Shown here: in pieces, positions 55,411 through 61,785 of the stretch
Position numbering within the stretch: position 1 is the stretch's first letter
Layout of the letters: each line of letters starts with the position of its first letter
Origin: an uncultured Maricaulis sp.
Lineage (GTDB): Bacteria > Pseudomonadota > Alphaproteobacteria > Caulobacterales > Maricaulaceae
Assembly: GCF_905480005.1 (NCBI RefSeq)
Contig: NZ_CAJQOO010000011.1
Location: 41,784-105,783 of the forward strand
DNA: 64,000 nucleotides
Reading direction: 5' to 3'
Program-made: the position numbers and the translations under genes
The notes under the pieces: generated by a model
What the model saw: the letters and a program-made list of their open reading frames with translations, nothing else
Told to the model about the DNA's origin: nothing
Database searches by the model: none

Positions 55411-58400
55411 TCAATGAAAATCCCGGCTCCTGGGCAAGATGTCTTCCAGCCGTTCGCCCTGCATGACGCGGCGGTAGAGGGCAACGGTTCGGGGGTCGGC
55501 ATTGGGGCGGGCGATTTCGTCGGCATGGGCGACGGCTTCAGCGAAATCAGCCCCGTCAGCGAGCGCGGCGAGGCGCCAGGACTGGTCAGTGAGGCGGTTG
55601 GCGACGACATGAATGACGCGGCCCTCCTTTTGGACCCGGCCGGTCACGCCGAGCAGTTTCGATGACATGACAATGCGGCGGTGCCGCTCGAAACAGCTTG
55701 GCCAGACGATGATATTGGCGATGCCGGTCTCGTCCTCCAGCGTGGCGAAGATCACACCCGAGGCCGAGCCGGGGCGTTGGCGCACGAGGACCAGCCCGGC
55801 CAGGGTGACCCAGCGGCCATCGCGCATGTCACTGAGGGCGGCGCAGGGCACATGGCCGGTCTCGGCCAGCTCGCCGCGAAAGAAGCTCAGCGGGTGAGCC
55901 TTCAGGGACAGGCGCAGGGTGGCGTAATCCTGCGCGACCTGTTCGCCGCCGGTCAGTTCGGGCAGGGCGACGGGGTGTTCGGCGCCCCAGCTGTCGGCAT
56001 GCTGGAAAAGGGGAAGCGGCTTGCCGGCCTCGGCCAGGGCGGTCCAGCTCGCCTTGCGCCGGTCCATGTCCAGGGAGCCGACCGCATCGGCATTGGCCAG
56101 CCGGTCGAGTGAGCCCTTGTCCAGCCGGGCCCGGCGGGCGAGATCGGCCAGGCTTTCGAAACATCCCTCGGCCTGGCGCGCGGCGACCAGGCGGGCGGCG
56201 GCGGGCTCTTTCATGCCCTTGATCTGGCGCAGGCCCAGCCGCACGGCAAAGCGCATGCCGGTGCCGTCGCGGCGCGGGATATCGGTCTCTTCCAGCGTGG
56301 AATCCCAGTCGGAATGATTGATGTCCGGCGGACGCACATCGACGCCATGTTCACGGGCATCGCGCACCAGCTGGGCCGGGGCGTAAAACCCCATGGGCTG
56401 GCTGTTCAAGAGGGCGGCGAGGAAGACGTCGGGATAATAATGCTTCAGCCAGCAGGAGACATAGACGATGAGGGCGAAGCTGGCGGCATGGCTTTCGGGA
56501 AAGCCGTATTCGCCGAAGCCTTCGAGCTGTTTGAAACAGCGCTCGGCAAAGTCCGGCTCATAACCATTGGCAATCATGCCATGCATGAGTTTCTGGCCCA
56601 TTTCATGGATTGTGCCCGAGCGTCGGAAGGCGGCCATGGAGCGGCGCAGCCGATCGGCCTCCGACGGGGTGAAACCGGCGGCCACAATGGCGATCCGCAT
56701 CGCCTGTTCCTGGAAGAGCGGCACGCCGAGCGTCTTGCCCAGTACCTCCTCCAGTTCGCGTGAGGGATATTCCACGACTTCCTCGCCGCGGCGCCGGCGC
56801 AGATAGGGATGGACCATGTCGCCCTGGATCGGTCCGGGCCGGACGATCGCGACCTCGATCACCAGATCATAGAAATTGCGCGGTTTGAGCCGGGGCAGCA
56901 TGGTCATCTGGGCGCGGCTCTCGATCTGGAAAACACCAACCGTGTCGGCCTTGCAGATCATGTCATAGACGCGCGGGTCCTCGGCCGGGATGCTGGCCAT
57001 GGTCAGATGGCGGCCATGATGCGTGGCCAGCAGGTCGAAGGCGCGCGCGACACAGGTCAGCATGCCCAGACCCAGCACATCGACCTTCATCAGGCCGAGC
57101 GCGTCGATATCCTCCTTGTCCCATTCCAGCATGGTGCGTTCGGGCATGGCGGCATTGTGCAGGGGCACGATCTCGTCGAGTCGGGCCCGGGTCATCACGA
57201 AGCCGCCGGGATGCTGGGCCAGGTGTCGCGGAAAGCCCATCAGCTCGCGGGCATAGCGCAGCGTCATGGCCAGGGCCGGGCTGTCCGGATCCAGGCCCAG
57301 CTCGTCGCGGATACGGCTCTCCTGGATTTCGCCGGACGACCAGCCCCACAGGCTTTTCGACAGGGCGGAGATGACATCGCCGGACAGGCCGAACACCTTG
57401 CCGACTTCGCGGATGGCGCCGCGCGGACGATAGCAATTGACCGTCGCCGTCATGGCGGCGCGGCGGCGTCCGTATTTCTCATAGACATACTGGATCACCT
57501 CTTCGCGGCGATTGTGCTCGAAATCGACATCGATATCGGGTGGCTCGCCGCGCTCGGCCGAGACGAAACGTTCGAACAGCAAATCAATCCGGTCCGGATC
57601 GACCTCGGTGATGCCGATCGCGAAACAGACCGCCGAATTGGCCGCCGAGCCACGCCCCTGGCACAGGATTCCGCGGGAGCGGGCAAAGCGGATCACGTCC
57701 TGGACGGTGAGGAAATAGGACGGGTAGTCGAGCCCTTCGATCAGATCCAGCTCGCGCGCGACCGCCGCGGCGATCCTGTCCGGTGCGCCGCCGGGATAGC
57801 GGGTCATCAGACCTTCGGCGGCGAGACGGCGCAGGGTCTCGTTCGGGGTTTCATTCTTGCCGATCACCTCATCGGGATAATTGTAGACCAGCTCGTCCAG
57901 CGAGAAGGTCAGGCGGCGGGCGATCGCGACAGAGCGGGCGACGGCCTCCTCATATCCGTCAAACAGGCGATAGATCTCGGCTGCGGGTTTGAGGTGGCGT
58001 TCGGCATTGGCGGCGAGGTGGAAGCCGGCCTCGTCAATGCGGACATGCTCGCGGATACAGGTGACGACATCGGCCAGGGGTTTGCGGCCCGGCGCGTGAT
58101 AGCGGGCATCGGTGCTGGCGACCGTGGTCAGGCCCCAATCCTGCGCCAGCATGCTGAGCCGGTGCAGGCGTTCGCCGTCGCGGCCATCAAACCAGCGCGT
58201 CAGGACCAGATGGGTCTCGCCTTTCAGCCCGGGCAGGAAGGTCGTGACCCTGTCCTGCCAATCCTGGCTCGGCTCGCGCGGCGGGATCAGCAGCAGAAGC
58301 TGGCCCGTCGAGGCGTTCGCGACCGCCTCGGCGTGCAATTCGCAATCGCCCTTGCTGGCCGCGAAATTGGCGTCGGTGAGCAGGCGGGTCAGCCGGGCCC

Positions 58401-58659
58401 AGGCGGCCAGATCCGTTGGATAGGCGGCGATTTCCAGTCCGCAGCGGGTGACAAGACGGGTGCCGGGAAGCAGCGCGATACCGGCATCCTTGGCGGCCAG
58501 GTGAGCGCGGACCATGCCGGCAAAACTGTTGCGATCAGCCAGTCCGATGGCGGCCAGACCCAGCGCCCGGGCCTGGGCCACCATCTCGTCAGGATGCGAG
58601 GCGCCGGTGAGGAAGGTGAAATTGCTGGCCGTGAGCAATTCCGCAAACTCACGGCTCAT
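55411..58659 (-). CDS. dnaE2: Error-prone DNA polymerase, alpha subunit type
   Basis: This 1082-aa C-family polymerase performs damage-induced mutagenic synthesis with ImuA and ImuB. The N-terminal PHP domain starts FAELLTASNFTFLTGASHPDEM. The catalytic palm has RGSAANSAVCFAIGITEVDP and GEPPDIDVDFEHNRREEVIQYVYEKYGR, with the Asp pair intact. The later KVDVLGLGMLT and the C-terminal OB fold (VTLAGLVLVRQRPGSASGVIFATLEDETG) complete it. It is shorter than replicative DnaE and has the usual DnaE2 layout. It starts where the DUF559 gene stops (1-base overlap). Confidence 0.96.
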   Translation of the reverse strand: MSREFAELLTASNFTFLTGASHPDEMVAQARALGLAAIGLADRNSFAGMVRAHLAAKDAGIALLPGTRLVTRCGLEIAAYPTDLAAWARLTRLLTDANFAASKGDCELHAEAVANASTGQLLLLIPPREPSQDWQDRVTTFLPGLKGETHLVLTRWFDGRDGERLHRLSMLAQDWGLTTVASTDARYHAPGRKPLADVVTCIREHVRIDEAGFHLAANAERHLKPAAEIYRLFDGYEEAVARSVAIARRLTFSLDELVYNYPDEVIGKNETPNETLRRLAAEGLMTRYPGGAPDRIAAAVARELDLIEGLDYPSYFLTVQDVIRFARSRGILCQGRGSAANSAVCFAIGITEVDPDRIDLLFERFVSAERGEPPDIDVDFEHNRREEVIQYVYEKYGRRRAAMTATVNCYRPRGAIREVGKVFGLSGDVISALSKSLWGWSSGEIQESRIRDELGLDPDSPALAMTLRYARELMGFPRHLAQHPGGFVMTRARLDEIVPLHNAAMPERTMLEWDKEDIDALGLMKVDVLGLGMLTCVARAFDLLATHHGRHLTMASIPAEDPRVYDMICKADTVGVFQIESRAQMTMLPRLKPRNFYDLVIEVAIVRPGPIQGDMVHPYLRRRRGEEVVEYPSRELEEVLGKTLGVPLFQEQAMRIAIVAAGFTPSEADRLRRSMAAFRRSGTIHEMGQKLMHGMIANGYEPDFAERCFKQLEGFGEYGFPESHAASFALIVYVSCWLKHYYPDVFLAALLNSQPMGFYAPAQLVRDAREHGVDVRPPDINHSDWDSTLEETDIPRRDGTGMRFAVRLGLRQIKGMKEPAAARLVAARQAEGCFESLADLARRARLDKGSLDRLANADAVGSLDMDRRKASWTALAEAGKPLPLFQHADSWGAEHPVALPELTGGEQVAQDYATLRLSLKAHPLSFFRGELAETGHVPCAALSDMRDGRWVTLAGLVLVRQRPGSASGVIFATLEDETGIANIIVWPSCFERHRRIVMSSKLLGVTGRVQKEGRVIHVVANRLTDQSWRLAALADGADFAEAVAHADEIARPNADPRTVALYRRVMQGERLEDILPRSRDFH

Positions 58660-59072
58660 TACGCGTCCTCCGCAAGGCGGGGGATTGGGTCCGGCACCTT
58701 GCGGCGGGTCGATGGAGGTGTGTCGGCCAGCGCGCGGCGAATATCAGCCACAACCCGGTCAAAGTCCTGAAACACGGCCTCATTGGACACGCGGACAAGC
58801 GTCCAGCCCTGGTCGGTCAGCCAGTCCGTCCGCGCCGCATCATACAGGACCTGCCCGGGGCTGAGATGGGGCGGGCCATCAACCTCCACAACCAGCCGCG
58901 CCGACAGGCAGGCAAAGTCGACGATATAGCGTCCCAGCGGATGCTGGCGCCGAAAGCGGAACCCGTCGAGGCGGCGTCCGCGCAGGCCCTGCCAGAGGCG
59001 GACTTCGCTCATCGTCATGTTCCGGCGCAGGTGGCGGGCTTGCCGGGTGGCGCGTTCGCGGTCTTCTCGCAT
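58659..59072 (-). CDS. DUF559 (Vsr-like endonuclease fold) protein inside the mutasome cassette
   Basis: This 137-aa protein has the DUF559 layout: LRRNMTMSEVRLWQGLRGRRLDGFRFRRQHPLGRYIVDFACLSARLVVEVDGPPHL, with the Asp and Glu of a PD-(D/E)xK-like site, then YDAARTDWLTDQGWTLVRVSNEAVF. The ATG at 59072 follows aaaggag. It lies between imuB and dnaE2 on the same strand, overlapping dnaE2 by one base. Such proteins are often found as single mobile-looking genes flanked by GC-rich repeats, and a repeat-like stretch is present just upstream. A nuclease function is suggested by fold only. Confidence 0.88.
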   Translation of the reverse strand: MREDRERATRQARHLRRNMTMSEVRLWQGLRGRRLDGFRFRRQHPLGRYIVDFACLSARLVVEVDGPPHLSPGQVLYDAARTDWLTDQGWTLVRVSNEAVFQDFDRVVADIRRALADTPPSTRRKVPDPIPRLAEDA

Positions 59073-59084
59073 GTCTGACTCCTT

Positions 59085-59150
59085 TCTTTTCCCTCCGTCT
59101 CGCTGCGCTCGACACCTCCCCCGCCTTGCAGGGGCGGGTCATGACGCGCC
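59085..59150. repeat. GC-rich repeat-like element between imuB and the DUF559 gene
   Basis: The stretch ccctccgtctcgctgcgctcgacacctcccccgccttgcaggggcggg contains an inverted pair (cccgcc/ggcggg). It resembles the dispersed cgctcgacacctcccc elements commonly seen in alphaproteobacterial genomes near small endonuclease-like genes. A weaker relative may occur at 27630-27665 (cacctccccgatcaagggcgagg). Copy number outside the window cannot be checked. Confidence 0.45.
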
Positions 59151-60863
59151 ATGGACGAACCATTGGGGGCGGGTGGTTTCGAGGCCGTAGAGGCCGTCGC
59201 GATAGAGCCAGAAGCGGCGGCCTTCGCGGGTTTCGACGCGGAAATAATCGCGGGTGCGGGCCGGGCGTTCGGTCTGCCAGACACCCTCCCGCCACCAGTC
59301 CGGGGCGAGGCGTTCCGGGCCTTCAGCACGGTCGACCTGATGACGGACCCGGCGCCAGATGAAGCTGCGCGGCGGGCCGTCGGGGATTTCAGCGACCGCT
59401 TCGGCCGGTTCCGGTCGGGCCAGGATGAGCAGGGGGCGTTGTGGCGGTGGCAGGAGCGTGGATTGCGGTGCGGGCTCGGCGACAGCCAGCATGGCGGAGC
59501 GGCGTGAGGCAGAAGGGACGGGCGGGGATGCCAGCGCCGGGCGCCAGAGGGCGGCGCGATCAGGCTGATGGCTGGCCCGGCGGGCGGCGCGCTGGACCTT
59601 GTCCTCACCCAGGCGCACGACCAGGCGATCGGTCAGGCGGGCCAGATCGGTCTCGTCGATCCGGCCATCATCGACCAGCCCGTCCTGGCGTTCGCCCAGA
59701 CGCTGGGTGGCGCGGGCAGTCAGCTCGATCATTTCGATCCCGAAACCGATATCGATCTCGGCCCGGTCGAGCTTCTCGTTGAACAGGCGGGCGAGATGAC
59801 CGGCCTCGCGGGCCGGAGCGGCGGTGCCCAGGGTGAGGAGATGGGTCTTGCCGTCGACGCGGAAGAGGTGGAGGTCGAGCCGGGTGACGCCGCGCCCGGC
59901 GGCTTCCAGCGCCTCGCACAAACCCTCGGCCGTGTCCTTCACCCCCTGTTTCAACCCGTCCAGCAGGAGGAGGGCATCGACATAGCGGGTGCGGGCGCGA
60001 AAGGGCGTCACCGGCTGTAGCGGATTGAGGATTTCGCGGGCCCGGCCGGTCGCCTGGTCGAGCCGGTCGACCAGCGCGCGGCCGAAGCGGCGAACCAGGC
60101 TGGCGCGCGGCAGGCTGGCGATATCGCCGACCCGTTTGAGCCCGAAACGGCGCAGGGTGGCGGCGGTCTCGCCAATGCGCAGGGCGGTGACCGGCAGCGG
60201 GTTGAGGGCAGCGATGTCCTTGACCACGACCTGGCCATCCGGTGCGTCGGGGGCGGTGTGACGGGCCAGACCCCAGGCCAGGCCGATCGTCGGCGCGATG
60301 GCGCCATGGGCCTTGTGGCCCTGGCGGCGCAGGGCGGTCAGGGCTTCGGTGAGCAAGGCCGCCTCGCCACCGAATAAATGGGCGCAACCGGTGATTTCCA
60401 GCAGGATGCCGTCCTCGCCGGGCTGGCCGGGATCGGGGGCGGTCCAGGGCGACCAGCGACCACAGCCTCGCGCCAGCGCGGCCAGGCGGCGGATATCGCC
60501 AGCCGGATCGGCCGGGCGCAGTTGCAGGGTCGGCTCGAGCGCCTTGGCATCGGAAACCGCCTGGCCGGGCTGAAGGCCGCATCGGACCGCGTCGGTATCG
60601 AGCGCATAGAGGCGTTCGCCGCCCGTCGTGGAGTGGACAAGGGCGAAGGGGGACTGCCGGGTCGGCGTCCCGGTGTTGTCCAGCTTGCCTGACGGCCCCG
60701 GTGAGGCCGGCTTATCCGGTGAGGCGGATGAGTTGGCCGGCCAGGGCCGGGCCGAAACCGGCCGGAGCCGGGCTGGCGGGTCGGGTATAGGGCTCGGCAT
60801 TGCGCTCGGGCGATGCCGGTCGGTCGGCCAGCGGGGCAGGCTCAAGGACATGAAACGACGCAT
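59139..60863 (-). CDS. imuB: ImuB, Y-family polymerase-like mutasome protein
   Basis: This 574-aa protein has the ImuB start RRFMSLSLPRWPTDR, then a Pro-rich stretch of about 50 residues, then PFALVHSTTGGERLYALDTDAVRCGLQPGQAVSDAKAL, the Y-family palm/finger region and the helix-hairpin-helix VGDIASLPRASLVRRFG. ImuB lacks polymerase activity in known cases and links ImuA, DnaE2 and the clamp. The start at 60863 has family-like residues, so its first 152 bases overlap imuA in another frame. The Pro-rich insert lies in that overlap. The track ORF includes a spurious extension. Confidence 0.9.
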   Translation of the reverse strand: MRRFMSLSLPRWPTDRHRPSAMPSPIPDPPARLRPVSARPWPANSSASPDKPASPGPSGKLDNTGTPTRQSPFALVHSTTGGERLYALDTDAVRCGLQPGQAVSDAKALEPTLQLRPADPAGDIRRLAALARGCGRWSPWTAPDPGQPGEDGILLEITGCAHLFGGEAALLTEALTALRRQGHKAHGAIAPTIGLAWGLARHTAPDAPDGQVVVKDIAALNPLPVTALRIGETAATLRRFGLKRVGDIASLPRASLVRRFGRALVDRLDQATGRAREILNPLQPVTPFRARTRYVDALLLLDGLKQGVKDTAEGLCEALEAAGRGVTRLDLHLFRVDGKTHLLTLGTAAPAREAGHLARLFNEKLDRAEIDIGFGIEMIELTARATQRLGERQDGLVDDGRIDETDLARLTDRLVVRLGEDKVQRAARRASHQPDRAALWRPALASPPVPSASRRSAMLAVAEPAPQSTLLPPPQRPLLILARPEPAEAVAEIPDGPPRSFIWRRVRHQVDRAEGPERLAPDWWREGVWQTERPARTRDYFRVETREGRRFWLYRDGLYGLETTRPQWFVHGAS

Positions 60864-61785
60864 GTTTCCACTCGATCTCGTATTCCTGTGGCGGGCCGCC
60901 CCTGACCCGTTCCAGTGCGGCGTGAAACCGCGGTTCTCCCAATCCCGGCAGCCCTCGTGCGCCGATCCAGGCCCGTGCCGGGGACGGGCGGGCGGCGATA
61001 CGCCAGCGACTGAGCGCGGCGCTGGGCGCAAGGCCCTCATGCGGTCGCAGGACCAGAGCCAGGGCTCCGGCCCGCCGCGCCGCCTGGTCGAGCCGGCGCG
61101 TGGCGGTCAGGTCATAGCGGGCCGAGGGCCCGGTCTCGCCGATCACCACGGCGCCGGTCTTCAAACCCTCTTCCAGCGTCCACAGCGTATCCGTCTCGCT
61201 GCCCGTCTCGACCAGGATGAGCCGGGCCGGATCGAGCCCCCATTGCGCCAGTGCCGGCGGGTAGGGGCGACCGAAATCCTGCCCGGTGCCCATGGAGCGC
61301 CGGACCCAGAGCACCGGGCGTTGCGCCAATTGCTCGCGCCCGCCATGGCCTTGCCCTGCACCGCCCAGATGGGTCGCCATGAGACCCGCCTGGAAAGCCA
61401 GGGCGGCGGGCGTGTCGAGATAGCCGGCCGGACAGATCTCGTGCAGGCCCGGCGCCAGCTCGAGCGGATCATCACCACAGCGCGCCGCATCGCCGCAGCG
61501 GGCCGGCCCGGGGTTTGCCACCGCACCGTGGTTTGCCACCGCACCGGGGTCCGTCACCGCACCGGGGTCCGTCACCGCACAGGGGTTCGCCACCACACCG
61601 GGGTCCGTCACCGCACCGGAATTGGCCGCAGGCCCGGCGCCCGCACGCACAGTCTCTCCCGACCGTCCGATTGGCGGTTTGCCCGACGTTTCAGGCGATC
61701 CGCTTTCGCTCATATCCAGGGCCCGTATCTGACGGCGCAGCTCGGCAAGCTGCTGCCGCCGGTCAGGACGTGACGGCACAGTCAT
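60712..61785 (-). CDS. imuA: ImuA, RecA/SulA-like mutasome protein
   Basis: This 357-aa protein has an N-terminal helix (RRQQLAELRRQIRALD) typical of ImuA. Residues 55-95 contain a low-complexity run of GAVTDP/GAVANP units, encoded by 18-bp repeats. The RecA-like core follows (HEICPAGYLDTPAALAFQAGLMATHLGG, VLWVRRSMGTGQDFGRPYPPAL, LILVETGSETDTLWTLEEGLKTGAVVIGE). C-terminal WKHASFHVLEPAPLADRPASPERN matches family ends. The C-terminal coding region overlaps imuB by 152 bases. A perfect GTTC-N7-GTTC box lies 22 bases upstream of the start. Confidence 0.9.
   Translation of the reverse strand: MTVPSRPDRRQQLAELRRQIRALDMSESGSPETSGKPPIGRSGETVRAGAGPAANSGAVTDPGVVANPCAVTDPGAVTDPGAVANHGAVANPGPARCGDAARCGDDPLELAPGLHEICPAGYLDTPAALAFQAGLMATHLGGAGQGHGGREQLAQRPVLWVRRSMGTGQDFGRPYPPALAQWGLDPARLILVETGSETDTLWTLEEGLKTGAVVIGETGPSARYDLTATRRLDQAARRAGALALVLRPHEGLAPSAALSRWRIAARPSPARAWIGARGLPGLGEPRFHAALERVRGGPPQEYEIEWKHASFHVLEPAPLADRPASPERNAEPYTRPASPAPAGFGPALAGQLIRLTG
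61510..61617. repeat. Six 18-bp tandem repeats inside imuA
   Basis: Units such as ggggtccgtcaccgcacc repeat six times with small differences, for instance ggggtttgccaccgcacc and ggggttcgccaccacacc. In the imuA frame each encodes GAV(T/A)(D/N)P. The period is a multiple of three, so unit number can change without frameshift. The tract falls between the N-terminal helix and the core domain. Confidence 0.92.

Follow-up and report, generated by a model that had tools for sequence, protein, structure and literature searches.

A long imuA-imuB overlap in a Maricaulis mutagenesis cassette as an instance of an alphaproteobacterial junction

How can two neighbouring bacterial genes come to share 152 bp of coding DNA, and does such sharing generate new protein sequence? 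The question is raised by the imuA and imuB genes of an uncultured Maricaulis sp., found in a stretch of 64,000 nucleotides of contig NZ_CAJQOO010000011.1 (hereafter the window). The original prediction, made from this DNA, described the shared segment as a rare overprinted region and suggested that a proline-rich linker of ImuB could be a product of it. The observation stands; the reading of it as a rare overprinted region that produced the linker is not supported.

The cassette and its shared segment

The features that concern us, with their coordinates in the window, are the following.

55411..58659, minus strand: dnaE2 (imuC), error-prone DNA polymerase (PRK05672, 1402.6 bits, cut-off 939)
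58659..59072, minus strand: DUF559 gene between imuB and dnaE2; its end touches the dnaE2 ATG
59139..60863, minus strand: imuB, 574 aa, Y-family-polymerase-like protein, ATG at 60863
60648..60815, minus strand: proline-rich ImuB linker, predicted to be disordered, residues 17-72, part within and part beyond the overlap
60712..60863, minus strand: imuA/imuB overlap, 152 bp, 2 mod 3, "phase 1" type
60712..61785, minus strand: imuA, 357 aa, folded core at about residues 98-306, tail (residues 308-357) encoded within the overlap
60816..60863, minus strand: overlap core, the most conserved DNA, encoding the first palm strand of ImuB (MRRFMSLSLPRWPTDR) and, in the other frame, the beginning of the ImuA tail (ASFHVLEPAPLADRP)
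60864..60876, minus strand: codons just upstream of the imuB ATG, ATCGAGTGGAAAC, the ImuA I-E-W-K codons
61807..61821, plus strand: GTTC-N7-GTTC, resembling an alphaproteobacterial SOS box, 22 nt from the imuA ATG on its upstream side

By its open reading frames, the overlap encodes two proteins in two frames, as had been predicted: ImuA residues 308-357 with the stop codon, and ImuB residues 1-50, the imuB frame being +1 relative to imuA (ORF coordinates, minus strand). With dnaE2 downstream of imuB on the same strand, the order is imuA-imuB-DUF559-dnaE2. The gene order, the protein families, and the SOS-like box upstream are those of the alphaproteobacterial imuA-imuB-dnaE2 (imuC) SOS mutagenesis cassette known, for example, from Caulobacter crescentus and Sinorhizobium (PMC1839093, PMC3901139), from which the window differs by the DUF559 gene between imuB and dnaE2. 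The GTTC-N7-GTTC pattern occurs three times in the window versus 1.4 times expected by chance, and only its position makes the imuA site notable. The DUF559 gene also matches the REase-like MTES_1575 family, more weakly. In three Maricaulis genomes (G002, G003, and G006) imuB is directly followed by a homologue, and in G016 an 81%-identical one follows the ImuB C terminus.

The identities of the two overlapping genes can be stated at the level of families. ImuA matches the NCBIfam equivalog NF033429 with E = 2.1e-10 and 40.8 bits, below the cut-off of 150, and we therefore call it a member of the ImuA family and not of that equivalog. It can be aligned with ImuA of other Alphaproteobacteria and sits directly upstream of imuB, and its homologues in this position are annotated as "ImuA family protein" or "damage-inducible protein." The matches of ImuB to Y-family models are weak (PF00817 is below its cut-off), its C-terminal DUF6504 region scores 24.3 bits against PF20114 (cut-off 24.2), and its homologues are annotated as "DNA polymerase Y family protein." Read from the sequence alone, the acidic motifs of active Y-family enzymes are missing from SLSLPRWP, in the first ImuB strand, and from EITGCAHLFGG. 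The mycobacterial ImuB has a beta-clamp motif and a RecA-NT motif that binds ImuA (PMC11791113).

The junction in relatives and the length of the overlap

The original prediction had pointed to the imuA/imuB junctions of relatives as a check. We collected 106 loci, which by their record titles are almost all from Alphaproteobacteria, and scored those with an imuB start codon -2 to +7 nt past the conserved ImuA motif [LIMV]E[WFYLQ], a rule that replaced a looser automatic one which had assigned a few wrong starts. The check bears the overlap out: 83 of the 106 loci fit the rule, and all 83 overlap in the same frame as the window (2 mod 3), by 65-221 bp (median 149 bp), with at least 150 bp in 41. 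The other 23 (4 lacking an overlap, 14 in which no motif was recognised, and 5 with an odd start) were left out of this overlap count. Nearly all scorable loci of the genus and of the order have the same-frame overlap. It measures 146-164 bp in the four-species clade of the window, longer than the 77-92 bp of other close Maricaulis, and about 65-125 bp elsewhere in the order. Public records of seven genera carry annotated overlaps of 68-113 bp (Microvirga, 83; Azospirillum, 113; S. meliloti, 101; Chelativorans, 86; Rhizobium, 89; Asticcacaulis, 86; Paracoccus, 68 bp). Plasmids of Burkholderia and Cupriavidus have it too, in the same frame (80 and 77 bp), and at other loci outside Alphaproteobacteria, compared by a weaker method, the genes mostly touch or sit a few bases apart. 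As a separate observation, seven genomes of the same genus (L020-L023 and L031-L033) encode an ImuB only ~40-43% identical to that of the window, versus 64-92% in most others; given this divergence, the genus possibly holds two cassette lineages, one of them horizontally exchanged.

Long co-directional overlaps are rare genome-wide (PMC2478687), but the rarity that had been predicted does not extend to imuA-imuB in Alphaproteobacteria, where the 83 loci make a long overlap the rule. We also ruled out that the length is improbable in itself: among 5000 synonymous-codon shuffles of imuB (71% GC), 67% let the imuA frame run for 152 bp or more before a stop, and hence the length is unremarkable for imuA-imuB in GC-rich DNA. 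For the single window, the overlap is ordinary; the class-wide pattern is moderately interesting. Like the long phase-1 unidirectional overlaps described previously (PMC3887535, PMC10666635), this one is co-directional, 2 mod 3, and ended by the next stop within the neighbour; both genes are real by homology, and the overlap is conserved in relatives. It differs from them in being, at 152 bp, far longer than the few bases that are usual, and in that a long overlap is conserved across a class.

We consider it highly probable that this is the ancestral imuA-imuB junction of Alphaproteobacteria, lengthened in the clade of the window by growth of the linker, and that the ImuA tail is mostly a by-product. 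The imuB start codon follows directly on the codons for the last ImuA strand (E-W-x-x), and part of the imuB ribosome-binding region would thereby be written in conserved ImuA codons. A ribosome translating imuA, unable to stop there, would continue, out of frame, through the 5' part of imuB up to the first stop, and this read-through would give ImuA a disordered and apparently passive tail, mostly a by-product of imuB coding. In the clade of the window, the low-complexity proline-rich linker lengthened in whole codons, taking the overlap from ~80-90 bp to ~150-160 bp, which accounts for the 146-164 bp found there.

Initiation of imuB and the wider meaning of the junction

Initiation of imuB at 60863 would be internal to imuA. 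In most relatives the codons homologous to those just upstream of the ATG resemble CTGGAGTGG, with a GGAG Shine-Dalgarno core that is present in 52 of the 83 rule-fitting loci; the core of the window is weaker (ATCGAGTGG). At this motif 55 of 64 L/V codons end in G, versus 2035 of 3790 elsewhere in imuA, a comparison of related sequences whose P value is optimistic. Selection could be keeping the overlap for translational coupling, with imuA ribosomes unfolding the imuB start and setting the proportion of the partner proteins. The same frame and homologous start across the class, the embedded Shine-Dalgarno sequence with its codon bias, and the reduction of ImuA synonymous change that several groups show at -60..0 are consistent with such coupling, and for large overlaps ribosomal unfolding is considered a likelier route than reinitiation (PMC12548453). 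However, the RNA structure predicted at the imuB start of the window is nothing unusual (z = -0.25), the overlap length is variable and near chance expectation, and termination-reinitiation across 152 nt is not expected. Ribosomes on imuA may well help imuB initiation by keeping the region unfolded, but since the local fold is not unusual, we put coupling forward as a suggestion and regard it as a rather unlikely reason for the overlap to exist.

Two further observations concern the DNA upstream of imuB. In the clade of the window, imuA synonymous divergence is very low (0.05) at 60864-60983, perhaps through recent recombination. A general conserved element upstream of the imuB start was considered and rejected, as the low synonymous change seen at -120..0 is absent at -120..-60 in other Maricaulis.

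A bolder reading, which we think less likely than not, is that the junction is a class-wide, functionally maintained long co-directional overlap, in which the conserved ImuA L-E-W codons double as the imuB Shine-Dalgarno sequence and translation of imuA opens the imuB start. In a survey of 338 genomes, all co-directional overlaps longer than 60 bp among 715 examined were judged to be annotation errors, and the longest real one was holD-rimI, with 56 bp (Palleja et al. 2008, PMC2478687). Going by homology and conservation, the class-wide imuA-imuB junction appears to be a counterexample to the 60-bp limit. If it is indeed maintained in this way, the published limit of 60 bp for real co-directional overlaps would fall. 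Annotation rules resting on that limit could clip real starts. The imuA-imuB junctions also form a series of natural lengths, from about 30 to 220 bp, on which the tolerated length of an overlap could be tested, and allow asking which protein pays and whether overlaps couple the translation of partner proteins. We found no published description of the imuA-imuB overlap in a search of mostly freely available papers, and an earlier description is possible.

The shared DNA, the linker, and the imuB start

Which of the two proteins constrains the shared DNA? We counted substitutions pairwise on related sequences, and the values are descriptive. In the ImuA frame, synonymous differences fall sharply on entering the overlap. 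Over its first 60 bp, other Maricaulis go from 0.57 to 0.08 and Brevundimonas-like loci from 0.40 to 0.03; over its distal part, Mesorhizobium goes from 0.25 to 0.03, Sinorhizobium from 0.23 to 0.05, and Rhizobium from 0.47 to 0.11. Synonymous change in the imuB frame drops less inside the overlap, and in most groups the amino acids of the ImuA tail vary more than those of ImuB. This is mostly the pattern expected if ImuB dictates the shared DNA. The imuB-frame synonymous change is also lowered in the first 60 bp in most groups, which makes it likely that ImuA or the initiation region exerts some constraint. In the clade of the window the first 48 bp are nearly invariant, and the distal overlap has no clear winner (amino-acid difference of 0.36 for ImuA and 0.33 for ImuB).

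This roughly equal change of both frames in the distal overlap is what one could expect from overprinting, in which the ImuA tail, the proline-rich linker, or both would be selected new products of the overlap with a function of their own. In the same direction point the site that is position 1 of imuB codons and position 2 of imuA codons, which changes least in this clade (25 versus 47 and 57 differences, in pooled, non-independent pairs), and the last overlap codons (ImuA RLTG-stop, ImuB SASPDKP), kept in all four species. We nevertheless judge overprinting improbable: ImuA tails are non-homologous between families, the rhizobial tail is dictated by ImuB, and the tail of the window is predicted to be disordered. 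AlphaFold2 models of both proteins, built from the collected relatives, place the last ImuA strand at residues 300-305, with imuB starting within codon 308; in the models the overlap begins where the ImuA fold ends, and almost every residue from 309 to 357 has a pLDDT below 50. ImuB is modelled with an ordered strand at residues 4-9 and disorder at 21-67, and past this first strand both overlap products are predicted to be disordered.

The linker also speaks against overprinting. The imuA stop of other close Maricaulis coincides with an (S/P)D pair of ImuB that precedes a conserved FALV (YALV in two) by 2-5 residues. In the window it falls at D50-K51 and 22 residues then lead to FALV, so the linker must have grown on both sides of the imuA stop, beyond the overlap as well as within it, which is difficult to reconcile with the suggestion that the overlap produced it. 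Relatives with a short linker still overlap by 77-92 bp, and the expansions of relatives carry 12-bp tandem repeats, found inside the overlap in L004 and L002; the overlap of the window has only a weak short-period repeat. An independent tandem array with an 18-bp unit (6.2 copies, GAVTDP-like hexapeptides, 61508-61619) lies in the N-terminal linker of ImuA, unrelated to the overlap and far from it. In-frame repeat expansion in linkers, rather than overprinting, is the simplest account of these sequences, and slippage may be its cause. The length of the 18-bp array varies between species.

The imuB frame is open upstream as far as an ATG at 61040, and the true start could be sought there or downstream of the imuA stop; both are very improbable. 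The original prediction that ImuB starts well inside imuA, with a family-like N terminus, agrees with what relatives have: the N terminus MRRFMSLSLPRWPTDR, which follows the ATG at 60863, is common to them, most of them lack any ATG above it, and a downstream start would delete the conserved first strand. An N-terminal extension of ImuB above 60863 was rejected, as there is no conserved start and L006 has a stop ~50 nt upstream. A sequencing or assembly frameshift joining two separate genes, which had been named as a way in which the prediction could fail, can be dismissed because the three nearest relatives, assembled independently, show the same arrangement (G014, 164 bp; G009, a single contig, 146 bp; G016, 164 bp). 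From the sequences compared, the 152-bp overlap is real.

Finally, the imuB starts annotated on S. meliloti and Rhizobium plasmids (L118 and L120, with overlaps of 101 and 89 bp) are possibly too far downstream; in related loci the motif rule gives ~150-160 bp, and these public records may contain mis-annotated starts.
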